NCBI GenBank assembly: GCA_903938485.1
Contig: CAJADF010000062.1
Span: 1 to 37,155 of the forward strand
Length of the DNA: 37,155 bases
Direction: 5' to 3'
From: an uncultured Methylococcaceae bacterium
Lineage (GTDB): Bacteria > Pseudomonadota > Gammaproteobacteria > Methylococcales > Methylomonadaceae
In this document: positions 26,893 to 37,119 of the stretch, piece after piece
Numbering within the stretch: position 1 is the stretch's first letter
Layout: the number at the start of each line of letters is the position of its first letter
Notes under the pieces: model-generated
What the model saw: only the letters and a program-made list of their open reading frames with translations
The model's database searches: none
Told to the model about the DNA's origin: nothing
Program-made: the position numbers and the translations under genes

Positions 26893-27147
26893 TTACTGCC
26901 CACGAGGACTGGGGCCACGGGGCTTATCAAACAAACCACAAACACCTATTTTTTTCCAGGCATTTAACCAAGTTGCTACTGATTGTCTACAAACACTAAA
27001 CACTACAGCAATCTTTTGAACTTCAAAGCCAGAATCACTTAGCAAAACGGCTTGAGCTCTCGTTCTGGTTGAAATACTAGGATGATTTTTCTTCATGCTC
27101 TCAAGCATTAATCTTTCATCTTTAGTTAACTCTTTTACACGTAACAC
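26893..27147 (-). CDS. Stand-alone HTH protein, IS630-transposase N-terminal type (copy 1)
   Basis: An 84-residue protein consisting only of a helix-turn-helix domain like the DNA-binding end of IS630 transposases (RAQAVLLSDSGFEVQKIA, then CRQSVATWLNAWKKIGVCGL). It stops soon after the usual linker DKPRG, and no DDE domain follows. The GTG at 27147 is chosen over TTG 27162 because it aligns exactly with the ATG of its paralogue (both continue LRVKELT). The two proteins are about two-thirds identical by eye. A matching promoter module lies 48-89 bases upstream. It could be a domesticated regulator or a leftover transposase fragment; the intact frames and shared promoters favour a kept gene. 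Confidence 0.7.
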   Translation of the reverse strand: MLRVKELTKDERLMLESMKKNHPSISTRTRAQAVLLSDSGFEVQKIAVVFSVCRQSVATWLNAWKKIGVCGLFDKPRGPSPRGQ

Positions 27148-27194
27148 GCTTATAAATCTCAATATTAATTGATTTTAGTAATCTTATGGCGGGT

Positions 27195-27236
27195 AGTCTA
27201 AAGATTCTTAACAACAAAACAATTACCCCAAGGGGC
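27195..27236 (-). promoter_or_regulatory. Shared promoter module, copy A
   Basis: On the minus strand: box GCCCCTTGGGGTA (27224-27236), one base, -35 TTGTTT (27217-27222), 16-base spacer, -10 TAGACT (27195-27200). It is the most palindromic of the three copies (CCCC-TT-GGGG). Start of transcription would be near 27188, about 40 bases before the HTH copy 1 start. The rest of this intergenic stretch (27243-27383) is AT-rich with nothing recognisable. Confidence 0.65.
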
Positions 27237-27383
27237 AATCACTCTTAAACACAGTTTTATGATTTAAATCTAGATTTAGCATTTATATCAAAACTCGCGT
27301 GATGAATAAAAAAATGAAATAAACTTTGAAAAGTACAAGTACTATTTGATTAAAAAAATCATCCTATCTTAATGATTTAGTAA

Positions 27384-27407
27384 TGGGGTAGCATGTTTGT
27401 TACCCCA
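27384..27407. repeat. Hairpin TGGGGTA / TACCCCA after HTH copy 2
   Basis: A seven-base-pair perfect stem with a ten-base loop. Its TTACCCCAAA half matches the promoter-module box (compare 27961-27970). It lies about 75 bases past the stop of HTH copy 2 and lacks a good U-tract, so it may be a terminator or an extra protein-binding site. Confidence 0.5.
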
Positions 27408-27483
27408 AATTTGTATTTTTACTGTCAATCAGCTCAATCTATAATTGTTAATTCTTAAATTGTAAAATGAACTAACTCAATTA

Positions 27484-27741
27484 TTAAGCTACTTTACGTG
27501 GACGACCACTACGATGCTTATCAAGTAAACCACAAACACCTTTTTTTTCCCATGCACGTAACCACGTCGCCACAGTTTGTCTACATGCACCAAAAATAGT
27601 AGCCATTTCTTGCACTTCAAAGCCAGTTTCACTTAATAAAATAGCATGCGCTCTCATTCTTGGCATATTGCCTGGATGATTTTTCTTCATATTTTCAAGC
27701 ATTAACTTCTCGTCTTGAGTTAATTCTTTTACACGTAACAT
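27484..27741 (-). CDS. Stand-alone HTH protein, IS630-transposase N-terminal type (copy 2)
   Basis: Paralogue of the gene at 26893-27147: 85 residues, one helix-turn-helix domain (AILLSETGFEVQEMATIFGACRQ within residues 33-55, then TVATWLRAW), ending in the basic tail DKHRSGRPRKVA. The frame runs on to GTG 27786, but the ATG at 27741 has GAGG about 11 bases upstream and matches the paralogue's start. No catalytic transposase domain or inverted repeats are found around it. A promoter module of the same type lies about 190 bases upstream. Function unknown; DNA binding is very likely from the fold. Confidence 0.72.
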   Translation of the reverse strand: MLRVKELTQDEKLMLENMKKNHPGNMPRMRAHAILLSETGFEVQEMATIFGACRQTVATWLRAWEKKGVCGLLDKHRSGRPRKVA

Positions 27742-27932
27742 AATTTTATCCACCTCAACATCTATTGGAATAACATCCAAGACCACAACCCTATGACTGT
27801 CATTTAGCCTCTTAACAGGAATATCAGTCAGTCATTTACCTTAAAAAACATTAAACCAGCTACCTACCTATCCTTTAATGTATTAACAATTTGCTAGATA
27901 GACCCAACTTCTATTTAAAGTTCTTATTAACT

Positions 27933-27974
27933 AGTCTAAAGACTCTTAACAAAATAACAATTACCCCAAAGGGC
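27933..27974 (-). promoter_or_regulatory. Shared promoter module, copy B
   Basis: Minus strand: box GCCCTTTGGGGTA (27962-27974), one base, -35 TTGTTA (27955-27960), 16-base spacer, -10 TAGACT (27933-27938). The flanking bases also match copy A (TAGTCTAAAGA and CTTAACAA are shared). Transcription would begin near 27926, leaving a leader of about 185 bases before HTH copy 2 in which no gene is seen. Confidence 0.65.
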
Positions 27975-28086
27975 ATAATTAATAAAAAATTTTAACTTTT
28001 TTAGTTGCGTGTATTTTATGCGTAAGAATTACGGCTTTTAATTTGAAAATGCTAACTCATTAAGACATAAAAACAATATGAAAACT

Positions 28087-28419
28087 TTACTTAATGTTGT
28101 GTTGCTCACATTTATTTTTACTATTTAGATATGAATCAACAATACCATCACCAGGCAATTCAATCACATCATCAGTCCTATTTTGAATGACACCTTCGCT
28201 TTTAGCTGCATTATTACACTTTGATGGTGTGCTGCTATCTATTGATGAAGAGATATTCTCATTTGAGTTATCACTCATCTTTGATCTGGGCATTTGATTG
28301 ATAAAAAGTATATTTTCATCATTAGGCTTGTTCAACTCTACGTCATTTGAAAGTGTTTCAGCATTAGCTAATCCCCAAAAAATTGCCGTAACACAAATTA
28401 CAACCCGAGACGCTTTCAC
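28087..28419 (-). CDS. Small secreted protein of unknown function
   Basis: From GTG 28419 this is 110 residues with a clean signal peptide: MKASR, hydrophobic VVICVTAIFWGLA, and cleavage after LANA. The mature part of about 90 residues is hydrophilic, Ser/Asn/Asp-rich and probably disordered, with two cysteines (SKCNNA and KCEQHN). The frame stays open to TTG 28551, but that extension would translate the promoter module and put a second hydrophobic stretch before the signal peptide, so it is rejected. No family is recognised. It lies between a FixJ-type regulator and the HTH genes and has its own copy of the shared promoter. Confidence 0.6.
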   Translation of the reverse strand: MKASRVVICVTAIFWGLANAETLSNDVELNKPNDENILFINQMPRSKMSDNSNENISSSIDSSTPSKCNNAAKSEGVIQNRTDDVIELPGDGIVDSYLNSKNKCEQHNIK

Positions 28420-28507
28420 CTTTATCACCCATAAAAAACCTGTAAGCCTCTGTAATATATTAAATATTAAACAAAAACCTAAAGAACCATTGAAATACTT
28501 TAACGGG

Positions 28508-28549
28508 ACTATAAAAGATTTTAAAAAAATGACAACTACCCCAAAGGGC
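28508..28549 (-). promoter_or_regulatory. Shared promoter module, copy C
   Basis: Minus strand: box GCCCTTTGGGGTA (28537-28549), one base, -35 TTGTCA (28530-28535), 16-base spacer, -10 TATAGT (28508-28513). This copy has the best sigma-70 hexamers of the three. Transcription would start near 28501, about 80 bases before the secreted-protein start. It lies 50 bases after the stop of the FixJ-type regulator gene. Confidence 0.7.
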
Positions 28550-28598: not shown

Positions 28599-29273
28599 CT
28601 ACGCTTGTTTTGCTAATTCAACAACCTTAACAAGATCAACTATTTTTAAAACGCCTAACTTTTCAAAAGCGTGCTGCCGATGTAACTTAACAGTGCGTAG
28701 AGCAATCTCTAATTCTTCAGCAATTTCACGATTTAATTTACCCCGCATAAGCAAATTAATCACTTCTATTTCACGACTGGTTAAGCTTGAAAACCGTTCT
28801 TTAGCGTTAGAATGACTAAGCACAAACGCTTGACTCTCTGAACTCTTCCATAATGCAGACTCAACTGCCGCTAACAAAACATCTGTATCAAAAGGTTTAA
28901 TTAAAAAATCCAAGGCCCCAGTTCGTAAACCTGCTACTGCCTCATATGCACCACTGGCGCCACTCATGAGTATCAACGGTGGATTTTCTCTCTCAATTAA
29001 CAACTTTTGTAATGCTAAACCGTCCATGTCAGGCATTTTAACATCACTTAATACGCACCATGGACCAGGATATTTTGAAGTTGGACTGGCATCACTTTGC
29101 AGAAAGTCTTGTGCAGACAAATAACTTTCGCAATAATAACCTTCCATCTCAAACAAAACCAGCATTGCAGAAACAATTTCGGCATCATCATCAATCAATA
29201 CAATTCGCCCACGCAAACAACGCTCTGCTATTTTATAATCGCTCACGGTAATGGGTCTTTTTGTTCCCTTCAT
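28599..29273 (-). CDS. FixJ/NarL-type response regulator
   Basis: Two-component transcription regulator of 224 residues. The receiver domain (about 22-145) has the acidic pocket DDD (28-30), the phospho-acceptor Asp77 in LSDVKMPDMDG, Ser104 in LMSGASG and Lys126 in LIKPFD. A LuxR-type HTH follows (about 161-220: LTSREIEVINLLMRGK, then EIAEELEIALRTVKLHRQHA). The FixJ subgroup fits the linker and LTSREIEV. The first 20 residues are an extra N-terminal tail. Its ATG overlaps the kinase stop codon (ATGA), so the two are translated together and very likely are partners. Candidate targets are the three promoter modules just downstream. Confidence 0.9.
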   Translation of the reverse strand: MKGTKRPITVSDYKIAERCLRGRIVLIDDDAEIVSAMLVLFEMEGYYCESYLSAQDFLQSDASPTSKYPGPWCVLSDVKMPDMDGLALQKLLIERENPPLILMSGASGAYEAVAGLRTGALDFLIKPFDTDVLLAAVESALWKSSESQAFVLSHSNAKERFSSLTSREIEVINLLMRGKLNREIAEELEIALRTVKLHRQHAFEKLGVLKIVDLVKVVELAKQA

Positions 29274-30748
29274 GCAATCATTCCTAATGTATTAATATCA
29301 TCAATCATTGGCAATTCTATAATAAATGCCACGCCACCGTTCGATTGGTTCTCATAGACCAATACCCCCCCATGACGCTCAACGATATAACGCGATAACC
29401 ATAGTCCAACACCCATACCCGTGGATTTAGTTGTACTCATTAACTCAAATATCTGTTGTCCTATATGTTCCGGTATTCCAACACCATTATCTAGCACCAC
29501 AATGCGAGTTAATGTCGCTGACTGCTCAGTCTTTACAGTAATTTGTTTAACACTGATATCTATCGCATCCAGAGCGTTAATAGCATTATTTAATAAATTA
29601 ATAAAAACCTGCTGAAACTCGCTCACGTTTACTTTTATAGCCCTAGGGGCATTCAAGTCATAAACAACATTTATAGCCTTCTTTTTAACAGTAGCCTGAA
29701 AAATGATCCCAATAGTCTCAATTAGACTATCCATTAATATATTTTCGTTTTTAATGACAGGTCCGACAAAAATATTTTTCAACGCATCAATCGTTTCAGC
29801 GGCTCTATCTACGTTATGGCTAATTCTTAGTAAAGCATCATCCAACAACACGTTTTTTTGATCACGCACTAAACGTGTCATCGATTGAGCATTAATTTTA
29901 ATCGCGCACAGAGGCTGGCTTAGCTCATGCGCAATAGTCGCGGATAAAACACCTGTTTCTACTATTTTTTCTGATTTCACTAAAGAATGCAGAAGCTGCT
30001 CTCGCTCCGCTAACAACAGCTTGATTTGATCTTTTTCTTCGGTAACTTGCTCAAGCTGAATAAGCTTAAACTCTAATTCGCTTACTGCCTTCATCTCACT
30101 AAGCATTAATTTTTCGTAAAAATAACTACTGATAGTTAACAGTATCGCAAAATAAATAAGCGTCATAACAACTCTAACAAATAAGCCCGAAGCTGATTCT
30201 TCATAAACATAATGTACATTAAATGCCTCATGTAAATTAAATATTCGCAAACTCACTAAACCCATAAAAAGCCCCTGTAGCACAGTAATAAACTTTAAAT
30301 GTATTGAACTATCTCTTTTAATTCTCTTAAGCACTTCAATTAGATGCAAACAAATAACTATAAATATACAGCCACCCACAAATAAATATCGATACACATA
30401 AGATATGTTGAACAAGCTTATAAATACTAGGGCATACACGACTATAAACCCATAACAGAGACGCTTAATTTTTTTATCAACAGAATAATCAAGAGCCTTA
30501 TATAATAAGTATAGGTTGATTAGACTCATCATTAATGCGATATTCGATACAACTAATAGTAAAGGCCAGCCAAACGAGGCGATCAAATAACCTATATTAG
30601 ATACTAGAAAAGCCAGAATTGAATTAATCCAATAAGTTTTTTGATCAGGACTAATTCTTAAATTTTTTATTTCAAATAACGCTTTAAAAAAGATAGCCAT
30701 TATAAAAAAAACAATAATGACATAAGTTACTTGATTAATATTTTCCAT
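29270..30748 (-). CDS. Membrane histidine kinase, cognate of the FixJ-type regulator
   Basis: Sensor kinase of 492 residues. The N-terminal half (about 5-212) has seven hydrophobic helices and no sizeable periplasmic domain, so it probably senses within the membrane. A coiled linker (about 215-262) leads to HisKA with the phospho-accepting His274 (ATIAHELSQPLCAI) and a HATPase_c domain with N-box NLLNNAINAL, G1 DNGVGIP and G2 GMGVGLWLS. The kinase core is of the FixL/DctB-like type (HELxQPL). It overlaps the response regulator by four bases. It lies 95 bases after the TonB-dependent receptor, with no terminator between them. Confidence 0.9.
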   Translation of the reverse strand: MENINQVTYVIIVFFIMAIFFKALFEIKNLRISPDQKTYWINSILAFLVSNIGYLIASFGWPLLLVVSNIALMMSLINLYLLYKALDYSVDKKIKRLCYGFIVVYALVFISLFNISYVYRYLFVGGCIFIVICLHLIEVLKRIKRDSSIHLKFITVLQGLFMGLVSLRIFNLHEAFNVHYVYEESASGLFVRVVMTLIYFAILLTISSYFYEKLMLSEMKAVSELEFKLIQLEQVTEEKDQIKLLLAEREQLLHSLVKSEKIVETGVLSATIAHELSQPLCAIKINAQSMTRLVRDQKNVLLDDALLRISHNVDRAAETIDALKNIFVGPVIKNENILMDSLIETIGIIFQATVKKKAINVVYDLNAPRAIKVNVSEFQQVFINLLNNAINALDAIDISVKQITVKTEQSATLTRIVVLDNGVGIPEHIGQQIFELMSTTKSTGMGVGLWLSRYIVERHGGVLVYENQSNGGVAFIIELPMIDDINTLGMIA

Positions 30749-30843: not shown

Positions 30844-32739
30844 TTAATAATTGACATTAACCCCCCCATAAACCCCGACACCCAAATAATTAAATCCAAT
30901 TAAATCAGGTGTGCGCTCATTATTTAAGTTTTCGCCCCGCAAATAGACTGCCAATTTTGGATTTACTTGATAATTTATATTCGCATTTAAGCGCGGCGCA
31001 GCTTGTAAGCGTAATTTATTAGCCGCATCCGCCCAATAGCCATCCCGATAAGTTAAATCAACTTTTACCGTAACGGGCTCTAAGAGCTGATATTGCGTCC
31101 AAAATAGACCTTGATTATTCGGCCGACCGGGAATGTCTAAGCCCGTTTTAGGATCATTAGCTTCCATATAAGAATAGCTTAAACCACTGGTCCATTTGTA
31201 AGACCACTGATGTTTAGCTTGCAGTTCTGTACCCCATACCTGAGCTTGTTTAGCATTTAGGCTGTTGATAACACCATTAGGCTGTTGCTGTAAAACTATT
31301 AGGTTTTGATAATGCTGAATATAACCGGATAAGCTGAGTTCAGATTTCTGATTAACTTGCCAGCGCCAGCCAACTTCCCCGCCTCTATTAGTTTCTGGTA
31401 GTAAATTAGGATTACCGAATAAAGGATGTAATCGCTCATTGACTGCTGGTGCTCTATAACCCGTCCCCCCTTTTAACCATAGCAACATTTCAGGATTAAA
31501 GCGCCAGCCAATATTGGCATTAAACACGGTATGATCACCAAAATAATCATAATGATCATAACGTGCTTCAGCCCCCGCCAACCAATTACCATAAACCCAT
31601 TCTGTTCTAGTTAAAGGGCTTATTAGATGGGTGGTTAACCTATGGTCTTTGGCTTTATTATCAATACTATCACCTTGCTGATGCTGGGTATCGACCCCCC
31701 AAATCATCTTGAAAGCATCTTTAGGGCTATTATTTATTGCAAACTGGTGGGTATTTTCCCAATTAGCCAGCCATAATTGACTCGTTAAATCCATAGAGCA
31801 ACAATAGGGTTGTTTGGTCGTCTTAAGTGTGCCAATACGCCCGGTCTGTTTATCTTGGGTATAGCCTACGTTTAAAGCTGTCTCCCAATTATTTAAAACC
31901 TGATAACTAGCCCTACTTTGTGCAACCCAGGTTTGTTGATTAAGTAGACCATTCGGATCATCTTTCCAGCCCAGTCTGCGCTTAGATAAGAATCCAGGTC
32001 CATCGTAATCATCACGTGTTTCAACAAAATAAACCGAACTATCTAAATTTACTTTATCAAAACCTTTATTCCAATTGAGCATAGCATTGGTCATTTGAGC
32101 GTTATCGGGTTCAACTCCACCATTCTGCGGCCCTGCTTGACTAATACCCTGAAAAATATCCGTGCGCCCACCGGCAAAAGACCAATCACCTAACAGATTA
32201 TGCGTGCCAACACCTAAGTTATTACGAAGTGTTCCGTAAGAGCCACCTTCGGTATGTAAAAAAACTTTTTCCTCTGACAGCTTTCGGCTTAAAAGATTAA
32301 TGCTCCCCCCTAAAGCACGGCTACTGTTTTGCTCACCGTTAAAACCACGAGAAACAGTAACTTTATCCAATAAATCTAAGGGATAATGGCTTAAAGGAAA
32401 AAAACCGGTAAAGTTGCCAAATAACGGCACTCCATCAAAATTAACCAAGCCTAAGCCCCCACTGGCACCGCGCAGAATCACATTTGTTGCTGTACTGGGT
32501 GAACCTTGACTGATACCGACACTACCCAGACCTCTTAAAACAGAATTTAAATCCGGTTTATATAAACGGCTTAATGTGTCTCGATTAAAGTGTGTAGTAA
32601 CGCTTGTTAGTTGCGCTTCAGTGGGTTCTATTGATTCTGAAATAACCCAATCAGGCAAAGATACCAGTTCATCTGCGATTACCGACGAAATAGGCATCAC
32701 CCATAGCGTGAAAAAAGACAGGGCTTTTAACTTTAGCAT
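30844..32739 (-). CDS. TonB-dependent outer-membrane receptor
   Basis: Outer-membrane active transporter of 631 residues. A signal peptide (1-22, cleavage near VIA-DE) precedes a plug domain (about 45-155: LNSVLRGLGSVGISQG, VILRGASGGLGLVNFDGVP, RALGGSINLLSRK) and a 22-strand-type barrel ending YGGVNVNY. BtuB/siderophore-type architecture, but the ligand cannot be told; a Cys-Cys pair (PYCCSMD) near the middle of the barrel is unusual. Its ATG immediately follows the stop of the upstream kinase (TAAATG), so receptor and kinase are translationally coupled. No ECF sigma or anti-sigma gene is present, so regulation is likely through the neighbouring kinases. Confidence 0.88.
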   Translation of the reverse strand: MLKLKALSFFTLWVMPISSVIADELVSLPDWVISESIEPTEAQLTSVTTHFNRDTLSRLYKPDLNSVLRGLGSVGISQGSPSTATNVILRGASGGLGLVNFDGVPLFGNFTGFFPLSHYPLDLLDKVTVSRGFNGEQNSSRALGGSINLLSRKLSEEKVFLHTEGGSYGTLRNNLGVGTHNLLGDWSFAGGRTDIFQGISQAGPQNGGVEPDNAQMTNAMLNWNKGFDKVNLDSSVYFVETRDDYDGPGFLSKRRLGWKDDPNGLLNQQTWVAQSRASYQVLNNWETALNVGYTQDKQTGRIGTLKTTKQPYCCSMDLTSQLWLANWENTHQFAINNSPKDAFKMIWGVDTQHQQGDSIDNKAKDHRLTTHLISPLTRTEWVYGNWLAGAEARYDHYDYFGDHTVFNANIGWRFNPEMLLWLKGGTGYRAPAVNERLHPLFGNPNLLPETNRGGEVGWRWQVNQKSELSLSGYIQHYQNLIVLQQQPNGVINSLNAKQAQVWGTELQAKHQWSYKWTSGLSYSYMEANDPKTGLDIPGRPNNQGLFWTQYQLLEPVTVKVDLTYRDGYWADAANKLRLQAAPRLNANINYQVNPKLAVYLRGENLNNERTPDLIGFNYLGVGVYGGVNVNY

Positions 32740-34182
32740 TTAGGCAGGCATAGCATAATCACTGTATAACTTATCAACCGCATTTTTTACTGGGGGTAAC
32801 ATGATTTTAAAGCAAGCCCCCCCTGCTTCTGCATTGCTAATAAGCAACTGTCCGCCATGTTGCTCAATAATAGTTTTTGAAATGGATAACCCTAGACCTA
32901 AACCCTCGTTTTTTGTAGAAAAGAACGGCTCACCAATGTTGGCTAATAAGTGCTCTGCTATACCAGGCCCATTATCTTGAACAGTAATGACTAAATATTC
33001 ATCAGAATGGCTAATAGACACGGTTATTTTTCCTAACACCGTTTCATGCAAAGCTTCTAAAGCATTACGATATAAGTTAACTAAAACTTGTGAAAGCTGA
33101 GTAGCATCGCCCAAAACGAGCAAATCACCTTCCGCTTTGCTAAAATTAAAATCAACATCAAGCACCATAAGCTTCTGATTTATAAACTTAACTGAATCCA
33201 GCACTAACTCACCCAGATCTACTTTATTTTTCTCCAAGGAAGTCGGTTTAATAAAGCCTCTAATATTTTCCACTATTGCATTAGCGCGCTGCGTGTTAAA
33301 AATTATTTTATCCAATACCTCTATAACTTCTGAAGAATTAAGCAATCCTCTATTAACACCTTGTTTAACCAATTGCGCATTACTCATTATCGCAGTGAGT
33401 GGTTGATTAATTTCATGGCCTAACGAGGCCGACATAGCACCTAAACTTCTCTGACGATCTAATTGCGCAATAATCTGTTGTTTTTGGTTGAGTGCAACCC
33501 ATCCAGTTGTTTTTAATTGTGTCTCACTACTTATCAACCGATCTAGAGAAATACCAATATAACCAAAATGACTAATGACCACACTTAATGCTCCCAACAT
33601 ACCTAGCTTTAAAGATAAAACGCCTGAAACAGCAGATTCGACCTGAATGCCATTGTTAATCAGAAATATAAATTGATAGACCATCACAATTAATAAAACA
33701 ACATGAACTAATCCGATAAAAAAGGTGTTAAACATTTTTAACTTAAATCCCACCTCAAATGCCAAATAAATAATAACCGCACTCATTGCTAAATGATAAA
33801 TGATGACAAATTCAAAGCGTAATAATTGATCACCCAAACCCACTCGAATACCTTCAAAAACAAGCAAAAAGAGTACTATTGATACGCACGGCCAAAATAA
33901 TTTCCAAGCCGCATATAACTCCATTCTTAAGGCCTGTATCCGTGCCAAATATGCCGTAAAAAACAAAACATTAGGCAAAGGATATGTTGCCCAGTCTGGC
34001 AATACATTGCGTTGTAAAATAAGAAAAACTCCGAATCCAAAACACAAACCACCAAAGCACCAATAGGTAACACGTAGTGATCTAACACCATTGAGCAATA
34101 TCCACGTCATAACCGGTAATAAAAAAAACAATAAACAACTTATCAAGTAAGTATCAGGAATATTCAATCCGCCATGGCTCAT
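32740..34182 (-). CDS. Membrane histidine kinase upstream of the TonB receptor
   Basis: Sensor kinase of 480 residues from ATG 34182; a GTG three codons earlier is the alternative, but the ATG has GAG about ten bases upstream. About seven transmembrane helices fill residues 8-215 with no large extracytoplasmic domain. The HisKA domain has His256 (LGAMSASLGHEINQPLTAIM); HATPase_c has N-box NLYRNALEAL, G1 DNGPGIAEH and G2 EGLGLGLSISK. The C-terminal half closely resembles that of the kinase at 34390-36738, a clear paralogue. It abuts the receptor gene (stop TAA directly before ATG), which suggests a shared signal or substrate. Confidence 0.88.
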   Translation of the reverse strand: MSHGGLNIPDTYLISCLLFFLLPVMTWILLNGVRSLRVTYWCFGGLCFGFGVFLILQRNVLPDWATYPLPNVLFFTAYLARIQALRMELYAAWKLFWPCVSIVLFLLVFEGIRVGLGDQLLRFEFVIIYHLAMSAVIIYLAFEVGFKLKMFNTFFIGLVHVVLLIVMVYQFIFLINNGIQVESAVSGVLSLKLGMLGALSVVISHFGYIGISLDRLISSETQLKTTGWVALNQKQQIIAQLDRQRSLGAMSASLGHEINQPLTAIMSNAQLVKQGVNRGLLNSSEVIEVLDKIIFNTQRANAIVENIRGFIKPTSLEKNKVDLGELVLDSVKFINQKLMVLDVDFNFSKAEGDLLVLGDATQLSQVLVNLYRNALEALHETVLGKITVSISHSDEYLVITVQDNGPGIAEHLLANIGEPFFSTKNEGLGLGLSISKTIIEQHGGQLLISNAEAGGACFKIMLPPVKNAVDKLYSDYAMPA

Positions 34183-34293
34183 ATAAAACACTCAATTAAG
34201 TTGACACTGTTTAAAAATTTACAGGTTTGTATTTTAAAGACAGAGTAAGTAATACTTTCTCTTAAAACAGTTAAAATCTAATTTTTTGTTGAT

Positions 34294-34389: not shown

Positions 34390-36738
34390 TTAAACATGTA
34401 AAATCGGTAGCCTTATCTCAAAACAAGCGCCGCCTTGCTCAGCATTACTTATGAGTAACTGACCATGATGTTGCTCAATAATATCTTTAGAAATTGACAG
34501 ACCTAAGCCTAGACCAGATGATTTAGTCGTATAAAAAGGCGTAAAAACTTTAGTTAAGGCCTCTTTCGTAAAACCAAGGCCACTATCCGTAATAGTTAAC
34601 ACGACCCAATCATCTAAGTGAGAAATAGTGATAAATATATCTCGCGTATCCGAATGCTGCAAAACCTCTATCGCATTTCGATAAATATTTAATAAAACTT
34701 GTGATAACTGTAAAGCATCACCCAACACAAACAACTTTTCATCATTGATAAAAAAATGCACCTTAATCTGCGCAACCATCAAATCCTGAGTTAAAAAACC
34801 TAAAGTTTCTTTAACCAACGCTACAACATCAATGGCAAATCTTTCCAATTGAGATGGCTCGATGAAACTACGTATTTTTTCAATAATTAAATTTGTACGC
34901 CGCGTATTAAAGATAATCTTTTCTAATAACCCTCCCAATAAGACCGGTGATACATCACCTTTTGCTAAACCACGTATGGCGACTTGAGCATTAGTCATAA
35001 TGGCAGTTAAAGGTTGATTTAATTCATGTCCTAAAGAAGCAGCCATGGCACCAAGACTTCGCTGCCGATCTAAATGCGCAATAAATTGGCTTTGCCGGGC
35101 TTTTTCTTGTAACTGATCACCCAACAACACTTCTCTACCAGAAACCACCCAAATAAAAGCCCCTGCAATACCCGTTAAGATTAACCCTGATAGTAATATA
35201 ATCTCATCATAATGATGATGATGCGCCATAAGCCAAGACGCTGATGGCGCGACTTCAAATTGCCAAAGTCGATTTGCTACTGGAATATTAAACACTCCTT
35301 GTAAAGAAAACTTTTCTCCAAAATAACTGTGCTCTTGTTCATCTATGGAATATGCCAAGTCCCACGCTTTTTCAAAAAGCAATTGCTCGCCAACTACCTC
35401 ATCCTTATCTATGGCTCTATAAGAAATACCCTCTATATTTAAACCTTCAAAAGCGGAATCAGATAATTTATTTAAATAAAATACCAATGAGACATAAGAA
35501 GTAATATTTTTTTCTCTGTCAACCCATGTGCCACTAGGCATACCATATTTGTATATAGGCATTACCGCAAAAACACCTTTTAGCTGTTCATGTCCTTGCA
35601 CTAAAATCAAAGGACCGCTCACAGCGATATTAGCAGTCAATTTTGCCTGTTCAAATACCGCACGACTATTAACATCTGAATAACTATCGAAGCCTAAAGC
35701 TACTTCATTATCTTCTAACGAATCTGTATAAGTAATTGGCGCGTAGATCTCCCGATGCCCAGCCTCTACTATTTGATTATTAAGATTATGCTCCGTTATT
35801 TGGAAATACGGATAACCATGAATACGCATATTATTGATAAAGTCTTGTCTATCAACATCATTAATAATAGGGTTCCAACTCAATGCCTGAATTGATTTAC
35901 TTTCTTTTTTATAGTGACTCACAAAAGACTGAAACTCTTGTCTGTCTACATTAATCGAACTGGCATAAAACCTTTCTAGGGAATACAAAGTATTTATATG
36001 CGCCAAAATATCCTTTTCTAAAGCGGACTTCATTGCAGACGCTTGCAAATTAAAATCACCTTTTAACTCTTCATGGCTATGACGTTTGGCGGAATAAACC
36101 CCAACGCCTGTTAATAAAGATAAGGCGCAAAAAGTTGCGGTTAAAACTAATCGTCTAGTAGACCATAGTTGCAATGGCCATAACCAGACTAAAACTAATG
36201 GTGTAAAGATCAAAACGCCTAGAAAATCTCCGCTCCACCAAGTTGCCCATTTATAGAAAACATCTACTGCAGGTGTCCTGCCTGTTAATATTAATGTCGC
36301 AACTGAGAGTGTCGAATTAACTAAAACACTGAGTCCACCACCATATAAAAAAAACAGAAAAACTCTATTTCCGTTAATAAACTCTAAAGGAAACCCTGCA
36401 AAACGCCGCACTAAATAAGCGCCTAGAATAGCCTGCAAGCTAGCGCCGAAACTGATAACTAAAGTGATTAATACAGAAAGACTATTGTCTAAGATTTGAT
36501 TAGACCAAGATGCAATTAAAGCATTAGTAAAAAAAGCGCCCATAAAAATACTTGGCCAAAAACGATAGCCATAAAGAAGTATAATAGCTAAAGCAAGACC
36601 GGAAGCGGGCCCTATTGCCGTGTCATATCCTGGGCTGATAACTGAAAAATAACGTAGTTGACCTGCAATAAAATAGGCTAATGCAACACCTATAAAATAA
36701 TACCCGCGCGCATAACCCTTATCAGGGACTTTTATCAT
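34390..36738 (-). CDS. MASE1-CHASE sensor histidine kinase
   Basis: Large sensor kinase, 782 residues. Residues 10-215 form a MASE1-type multi-helix membrane domain (GPASGLALAIILLYGYRFWP). Residues about 225-500 are a periplasmic CHASE domain (QALSWNPIINDVDRQDF, HGYPYFQITE, ISGP-like VSGPLILVQG), followed by a helix (about 512-532). HisKA has His571 (ASLGHELNQPLTAIM); HATPase_c has N-box NIYRNAIEVL, G1 DSGLGF and G2 SGLGLGLSISKD. A run of four histidines (506-509) sits at the periplasmic edge of the last helix. CHASE domains bind small extracellular molecules. It lies 12 bases after the receiver-only regulator, its probable operon partner. Confidence 0.92.
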   Translation of the reverse strand: MIKVPDKGYARGYYFIGVALAYFIAGQLRYFSVISPGYDTAIGPASGLALAIILLYGYRFWPSIFMGAFFTNALIASWSNQILDNSLSVLITLVISFGASLQAILGAYLVRRFAGFPLEFINGNRVFLFFLYGGGLSVLVNSTLSVATLILTGRTPAVDVFYKWATWWSGDFLGVLIFTPLVLVWLWPLQLWSTRRLVLTATFCALSLLTGVGVYSAKRHSHEELKGDFNLQASAMKSALEKDILAHINTLYSLERFYASSINVDRQEFQSFVSHYKKESKSIQALSWNPIINDVDRQDFINNMRIHGYPYFQITEHNLNNQIVEAGHREIYAPITYTDSLEDNEVALGFDSYSDVNSRAVFEQAKLTANIAVSGPLILVQGHEQLKGVFAVMPIYKYGMPSGTWVDREKNITSYVSLVFYLNKLSDSAFEGLNIEGISYRAIDKDEVVGEQLLFEKAWDLAYSIDEQEHSYFGEKFSLQGVFNIPVANRLWQFEVAPSASWLMAHHHHYDEIILLSGLILTGIAGAFIWVVSGREVLLGDQLQEKARQSQFIAHLDRQRSLGAMAASLGHELNQPLTAIMTNAQVAIRGLAKGDVSPVLLGGLLEKIIFNTRRTNLIIEKIRSFIEPSQLERFAIDVVALVKETLGFLTQDLMVAQIKVHFFINDEKLFVLGDALQLSQVLLNIYRNAIEVLQHSDTRDIFITISHLDDWVVLTITDSGLGFTKEALTKVFTPFYTTKSSGLGLGLSISKDIIEQHHGQLLISNAEQGGACFEIRLPILHV

Positions 36739-36750
36739 ATATAGCTAATA

Positions 36751-37119
36751 TTATTTGATGGGAGTTTGAAACAAAATCCTTTCCAATTCATCCAAATCAT
36801 AGGGTTTTCTTAGTAACGTGGAATCCGCGGGAAGAGCACCTAAATTTTCAACCTCTTCAAAACGCAAAGCAGTTACCATAATAATAATTAATTCAGGAAA
36901 CCATACGCGAAGCTGCCTGCCTAGTTCTAAACCATTAATTCCAGGTAAATTAATATCTAGAATAGCTGCCGTATAGTGAGTGTGTTTAATATCGGTGTCT
37001 TTTATACTTGCTAATAAGTCTTCAGCGGAATAATGCACGGTAGTCTTAACACTTAACATTTTAACCCAAGCGCCAATAGCATCAGCTATTTCTTTATCAT
37101 CATCAACTATAGCAATCAT
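36751..37119 (-). CDS. Receiver-only response regulator (CheY/FixJ-like receiver)
   Basis: A 122-residue receiver domain with no output domain. The acidic pocket is DDD (6-8), the phospho-acceptor Asp55 in AILDINLPG, the conserved Thr83 in VTAL, and Lys105 in LRKPYD. It directly precedes the MASE1-CHASE kinase (12-base gap) and probably takes part in a relay with it. The ATG at 37119 has no ribosome-binding site, and the frame stays open upstream through the CAAC repeats to the window edge. The true start may therefore lie outside, or the protein may be longer. Confidence 0.8.
   Translation of the reverse strand: MIAIVDDDKEIADAIGAWVKMLSVKTTVHYSAEDLLASIKDTDIKHTHYTAAILDINLPGINGLELGRQLRVWFPELIIIMVTALRFEEVENLGALPADSTLLRKPYDLDELERILFQTPIK

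Follow-up and report, generated by a model that had tools for sequence, protein, structure and literature searches.

A predicted operator of a FixJ/NarL-type response regulator at the promoters of small transposase-like HTH genes in a genus of Methylococcales

Results and Discussion

Organization of the locus

The window, by which we mean the whole stretch of 37,155 nucleotides that was analyzed, derives from an uncultured Methylococcaceae bacterium that, judging from its kinship with relatives, probably oxidizes methane. The region of interest contains two small helix-turn-helix (HTH) genes, a gene for a secreted-like protein, three promoters that share a sequence element (the box), and a series of signaling genes that includes a response regulator (RR). 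These features are listed below.

26893–27162, minus strand: HTH gene 1, carrying HTH_29/HTH_23 domains and resembling the N-terminus of IS630 transposases; likely start GTG at 27147
27195–27236, minus strand: promoter 1, 5′ of HTH gene 1; box at 27224–27236, −35-like TTGTTT at 27217–27222, −10 TAGACT at 27195–27200
27484–27741, minus strand: HTH gene 2, IS630-like HTH; 85 aa from ATG
27933–27974, minus strand: promoter 2, 5′ of HTH gene 2; box at 27962–27974, −35-like TTGTTA at 27955–27960, −10 TAGACT at 27933–27938
27992–27999, minus strand: AAAGTTAA element, 25 bp 5′ of box 2
28087–28428, minus strand: small orphan protein with a signal-peptide-like start; 113 aa when read from GTG
28508–28549, minus strand: promoter 3, 5′ of the orphan secreted-like gene; box at 28537–28549, −35 TTGTCA at 28530–28535, −10 TATAGT at 28508–28513
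28599–29273, minus strand: FixJ/NarL-type RR, the proposed binder of the box
29270–30748, minus strand: sensor histidine kinase, overlapping the start of the RR gene
30844–32739, minus strand: TonB-dependent receptor, BtuB-like by its best NCBIfam match, which is far under the cut-off
32740–34191, minus strand: sensor histidine kinase, a homolog of which adjoins the RR in other loci
34390–36738, minus strand: MASE1-CHASE histidine kinase, from domain matches
36751–37119, minus strand: stand-alone receiver protein, the first gene of an operon type found in other genera

The window contig stops 36 bp 5′ of the stand-alone receiver gene. A strong inverted repeat at 27384–27407, called terminator-like on the plus strand, is located between HTH gene 2 and box 1.

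With respect to the genes themselves, the first-pass annotation required some correction. The two HTH proteins are indeed paralogous (66% identity over 82 residues), and what had been described as a secreted protein is an orphan of ~113 aa whose start resembles a signal peptide as judged by eye. At E 0.001 this orphan matched nothing in Pfam or NCBIfam, and it has no convincing homolog in the genus: the 34 other congeneric genomes yielded only a pair of matches, with E values of 0.01 and 0.05 and 24% identity. The RR contains Response_reg (4.6e-17) and GerE (2.9e-16) domains, both over their gathering cut-offs, and this combination of a receiver with a GerE/LuxR-type HTH places it in the FixJ/NarL type.

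Three promoters with a common core

All three promoter segments have the 42-bp architecture that had been claimed for them, in which the box is followed by one base, a −35-like hexamer, 16 bases, and a −10 hexamer, and their coordinates and strand were borne out. This three-promoter pattern exceeds chance in the window: the box is found at four sites when up to two mismatches are allowed (0.91 expected), and four or more sites were seen in none of 100 shuffles. At genome scale (2,513,124 bases in 134 contigs), the only three exact copies are those in the window. Three more copies have one mismatch and are located on contigs C5 and C104. In terms of promoter quality, the promoters of both HTH genes are weak relative to the sigma-70 consensus and are missed by a promoter scanner; promoter 3 agrees with the consensus at 10 of 12 positions. 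The mRNA of HTH gene 2 is predicted to carry a leader of ~185 nt when initiated from promoter 2.

It is hardly credible that the three copies lack a regulatory role, whether as leftovers of a repeat that was duplicated or mobile or as short terminator hairpins. HTH genes 1 and 2 are paralogous, so their promoters may share descent, and two boxes are indeed classed by a scanner as weak terminator-like hairpins. Pairwise identity of the 42-bp cores is 38, 30, and 33 of 42. Beyond the core, five of six comparisons between 60-base flanks give 14–18 identities of 60, which is background (mean 17), and the sixth, between the downstream flanks of HTH gene 2 and promoter 3, reaches 26 of 60, or the 99th percentile of background. 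Resemblance restricted to the 42-bp core argues against the recent repetition of a larger segment, and the mobile-repeat origin raised in the first-pass annotation as a challenge to its own proposal is disfavored. Moreover, as described below, the core is kept across genera at a fixed −10 distance and tracks the RR.

Co-occurrence of the box and the RR in the genus

The congeneric sample comprised 35 genomes including that of the window (G000). An 18-base pattern that includes no −10 (box-N-TTGT, at most one mismatch) produced 10 matches in 7 of the 35 genomes and none in the control. When extended to 42 bp (box-N-TTGT-N18-TANAMT, at most three mismatches), the pattern produced 14 matches in the same seven genomes, compared with one match in the 35 genomes for a reversed-pattern control. 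Orthologs of the RR (58–77% identity) are present in exactly those seven genomes, and the next best protein by score is 39% identical. The probability of this co-occurrence by chance would be 1/C(35,7) = 1.5e-7 for independent genomes, which these are not. On a DnaE tree covering 30 of the 35 genomes, including six of the seven carriers, the box-plus-RR trait needs five gains or losses, forced by the branches starred on that tree, and shared ancestry alone is therefore an insufficient explanation. By our reading, one change fewer is needed if G034 is left out; this genome (84% complete) contains neither box nor RR, and the relevant contig may simply be missing. The sharpest contrast comes from G022, which is 99% complete and whose DnaE is 93% identical to that of the window genome, yet which is also without box and RR.

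The box shares a contig with the RR in six of the seven carriers, and in G024 each is found at a contig end. Autoregulation is not a general feature of the genus. Specifically, a good box precedes the RR gene in G019 only, and no box with two or fewer mismatches was found upstream of the kinase–RR operon in G001, G012, G014, or G024. A weak two-mismatch box between the receiver and kinase genes of G028 (L054 4995) is a possible weak autoregulatory site, and the contig of the window genome ends too near to tell.

The box and the RR beyond the genus

An order-wide search of 311 genomes (E ≤1e-42) identified 14 carriers of the RR, seven in the genus and seven elsewhere. The RRs of these seven other Methylococcales genomes are 47–55% identical to that of the window, and in five of the seven loci (L261, L262, L265, L266, and L267) a box of the form GCCCC(A/T)TGGGG is found 5′ of a receiver–kinase–RR operon or its remaining genes. 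L263 has the RR and no box in the ~1.5 kb of upstream sequence covered, and the contig of L264 ends ~177 bp before the operon, too early to tell. The same expression also matches four other places in those seven loci. The 42-bp pattern matched 27 times in 20 of the 311 genomes, and its control 15 times in 12. Outside the genus, these matches include two RR carriers, both at the RR locus (G094 and G281), along with one three-mismatch match in each of 11 of the 297 RR-less genomes, which the control shows to be background.

More distant RRs (40–50% identity) are carried by nine betaproteobacterial genomes. There, an exact 17-bp palindrome, a pattern formulated after the sites at those loci were known, occurs at two places, both at the RR locus (G061 and G064). 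With up to one mismatch it occurs at five places, three of them at the RR locus (the third being G063), and with up to two mismatches it gives 92 strand-wise matches versus 22 for the control. Looser boxes are located 5′ of the RR or of its neighbor gene at L061 and L062 (211), and at L064–L066 the palindrome is directly 3′ of the RR stop, in an unclear direction. The L062 7873 and L063 1482 sites fall within ORFs of a crude gene calling; no box was found at the betaproteobacterial RR loci L067 and L068. A three-base periodicity, as judged by eye, indicated that L064 9540 and L065 4505 are probably coding, and these two candidate sites were not retained. A PWM scan did not separate the betaproteobacterial RR loci from 65 control loci, with best scores at L060–L063 of 11.2–16.7 against a control 95th percentile of 13.3 and maximum of 17.8.

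Promoter geometry

At 12 sites of the genus, a TANNNT hexamer starts 23 bp past the box, and in 11 of the 12 this is the best-scoring place. Ten of these sites had been found by the pattern that lacks a −10, and two matches of the 42-bp pattern (G019 C117 and C139) were left out of the test. Outside the genus, 10 sites were selected by eye among the box matches at RR loci; their best −10 starts at offset 23 or 24, and shuffles of the downstream bases never scored as high (0 of 20,000). Because L261 and L262 had also been found by the pattern containing a −10, the test was repeated with the eight sites chosen by box alone, and also with five less related ones, with 0 of 20,000 in each case; L064–L066 were omitted because of their unclear direction. 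A fixed distance from operator to −10 over unrelated promoters, as expected of a class II-like activator site abutting the −35, is thus what the geometry reveals.

An activator-type operator abutting the −35 had been proposed in the first-pass annotation, and comparative genomics argues strongly for it. A precedent is offered by CrbR/ErdR of the Gammaproteobacteria, a LuxR-family RR with an ACTU motif, whose site is an imperfect inverted repeat from −52 to −36 that is directly before the RpoD promoter and needed for activation (PMC5715377). Since the box is directly before a poor −35, the simplest reading would be that the bound regulator contacts RNA polymerase and thereby activates transcription, as CrbR does. 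The opposite sign of regulation, in which the RR binds the box and represses by blocking RNA polymerase at the −35, is unlikely: the box does touch the −35, a position compatible with repression, and the consensus match of promoter 3 is fair, but poor −35 hexamers combined with a −10 spacing that is fixed across genera typify promoters dependent on an activator, and CrbR, itself a LuxR-family RR, activates from a site at the stated position (PMC5715377).

Targets of the box and the small HTH family

Within the genus, an IS630-like HTH protein is encoded by the gene that immediately follows the box in G000 (two), G012 (two), G014, G024, and G028. Other targets differ. The third box of G000 precedes the gene of the orphan secreted-like protein; in G019, one box precedes an EAL-domain gene that is itself preceded by a 72-aa ORF, and a separate box precedes the RR; and in G001 the box precedes a 122-aa protein with sub-threshold winged-HTH matches only. 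Sites on other contigs (G012 C42; G019 C117 and C139) precede small uncharacterized ORFs. We do not claim the 72-aa ORF of G019 as an HTH protein, since HTH gene 2 alone matches nothing there and the single alignment that pairs the ORF with the HTH part of an HTH–EAL protein is carried by the EAL part. Elsewhere in G019 (C21:31035, L169), an IS630-like HTH and an EAL-like domain are fused in one 365-aa ORF, the EAL-like label being based on how this ORF aligns with the EAL gene of G019.

The HTH proteins were the second candidate binder named in the first-pass annotation, and the genus-wide distribution does not favor them. Matches to these proteins were found in 16 of the 35 genomes at E ≤0.001, 13 of them below 1e-12. 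If the small HTH proteins bound the box as an autoregulatory operator, the RR would be a mere neighbor, and the presence of the box before HTH genes in the window, G028, G024, G014, and G012 would be accounted for. Yet no HTH match was obtained in G001, which contains both box and RR, and the box is missing from seven genomes whose HTH matches fall below 1e-12. Three of these (G018, G022, and G029) have stand-alone HTH genes; in G015 and G021 the HTH is inside longer, transposase-like frames, in G006 the match has 39% identity, and in G017 it is partial. The HTH ortholog of G029 (a 75% complete genome) adjoins the same methyltransferase and protease genes, with no box and no RR. In addition, many HTH copies have a different conserved promoter block, and in other genera the box precedes the RR operon. 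Taken together, these observations make HTH proteins very unlikely as the binder.

The other promoter block is found at boxless HTH paralogs on G000:C52 and G000:C65 (two) and at places in G012, G014, G022, G024, and G028. Among 11 aligned upstream regions of boxless paralogs, nine contain TTGAACCTTT and GCAATTAA, and seven contain TTAACTTTTTT 9–10 bp before that block. The combination TTGAACCTTT-N9-16-GCAATTAA has 12 occurrences in the 35 genomes and none in the control, and 10 of the 12 are situated ~160 bp ahead of an HTH gene. At L282 (G014:C12, 3726–8463), a second pair of kinase-like and FixJ-type RR genes is located 5′ of an HTH gene that has this other block, an arrangement that parallels that of the window, with gene labels assigned by BLAST against the window proteins.

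A further element, AAAGTTAA, is present 23–25 bp 5′ of the box in six of seven box-driven HTH promoters (0.4 expected), namely window promoter 2, G012 (two), G014, G024, and G028, and is not present at promoter 1. In 7 of 17 cases from the other HTH promoter class, its reverse complement is found 181–185 bp ahead of the gene. Given its presence in both classes, AAAGTTAA may function as an operator common to the HTH family.

With respect to their origin, the two HTH proteins score 30.5 and 44.5 bits against an IS630 transposase model with a cut-off of 100, and match only positions 2–55 of its 299 positions, the catalytic part being absent. A full-length IS630 transposase was accordingly rejected as their identity, leaving the N-terminal HTH. 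The HTH_29/HTH_23 domains are common to both; unlike IS630 transposases, the genes described here stand alone at ~85–100 aa, have several copies per genome, and show low dN/dS. Specifically, dN/dS ranges over 0.05–0.32 in nine comparisons (0.19–0.32 for HTH gene 1 and 0.05–0.20 for HTH gene 2), values that are rough because dS is >1 in six of the nine. On this basis, the box-driven HTH genes look conserved by selection.

Relationship to known regulators

The recognition-helix motif RTVKLHR is present in 16 of 17 aligned RRs of the subfamily, an alignment that excludes the RRs of L261–L267, and the remaining one (L059) has RTVKHHR. Three non-orthologous FixJ-type RRs of the genus have RTVEAHR or RTIEIHR instead. 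The best NCBIfam model for the RR is FixJ, and the best solved chains are 1yio and 5xso. Nonetheless, its 131.3 bits fall short of the FixJ equivalog cut-off of 255, and the tetrathionate RR TtrR was likewise rejected (116.8 bits versus an equivalog cut-off of 290). FixJ-, StyR-, and TodT-type RRs of the NarL superfamily have the same receiver–GerE domain order; the RR described here differs from them in having its own recognition-helix and FPGP signature.

In terms of operators, the FixJ-like repeats quoted in PMC5408782 are unlike the box (GCCC-N4-GGGY). The CrbR system is similar in that an RR with a LuxR-type output is paired with a repeat just before the promoter, and both systems were found by the same comparative reasoning. 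The ACTU letters are unlike the box (for example, TACTACCATCGTCGAAT at acs; PMC5715377), the CrbR targets are acetate genes, and the CrbR kinase is an SLC5-STAC hybrid, from which the kinases here differ. Identity with the CrbR regulon was thus rejected, as the box letters differ from the ACTU sequences that this paper lists and the genes adjoining the box are not acetate genes. Within a literature search whose scope left most subscription journals and preprints outside, four spellings of the box letters appeared in no relevant paper, and no paper describing an operator of this kind in methanotrophs was apparent. Overall, the RR appears to represent a distinct, undescribed FixJ/NarL-type subfamily whose operator and targets appear new, the kind of regulation being known.

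A model for regulation by the RR

NarL/FixJ-type regulators bind as dimers to inverted repeats. We consider it highly probable, from comparative sequence evidence, that the box serves as operator for a dimer of the RR encoded at 28599–29273, which would activate transcription beside a poor −35 and which, in this genus, would mostly drive other promoters, chiefly those of small HTH genes. The co-occurrence within the genus, the DnaE tree, and the loci of other genera all argue strongly for the FixJ-type RR as binder, the first of the two candidates originally named. In this model, one or more of the neighboring kinases would phosphorylate the RR, presumably upon receipt of a signal, and the RR dimer on the box would help sigma-70 RNA polymerase at the adjacent −35, such that transcription would start from the −10 that follows the box at a distance of 23 bp.

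In other genera, the position of the box 5′ of the receiver–kinase–RR operon suggests autoregulation. In this genus, regulation would mostly be directed at other promoters: those of one or two HTH genes in five genomes, and, as targets in single genomes, those of the orphan secreted-like protein, the EAL-domain gene, the winged-HTH-like gene, and the RR gene. The result would be a two-tier circuit in which a sensor kinase acts through the RR on a small DNA-binding protein. The compact circuit envisaged in the first-pass annotation holds for this genome, though the system extends beyond the window.

As a more tentative proposal, which we regard as possible and somewhat doubtful, an ancestral autoregulated receiver–kinase–RR two-component system may have been rewired in one methanotroph genus, capturing as its second tier of regulators DNA-binding domains that stand alone and stem from IS630 transposases. 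Since the same HTH family has a second, equally conserved promoter class, these transposase-derived HTH proteins may form a hub-regulator network.

Our analysis provides an uncharacterized RR subfamily with a predicted operator and promoter geometry that are directly testable, in a lineage represented here mostly by metagenome-assembled genomes. It would also constitute a case of regulatory rewiring, in which regulator and operator have stayed constant as targets changed, and it offers an example of small transposase-like HTH proteins that may have been recruited as regulators.
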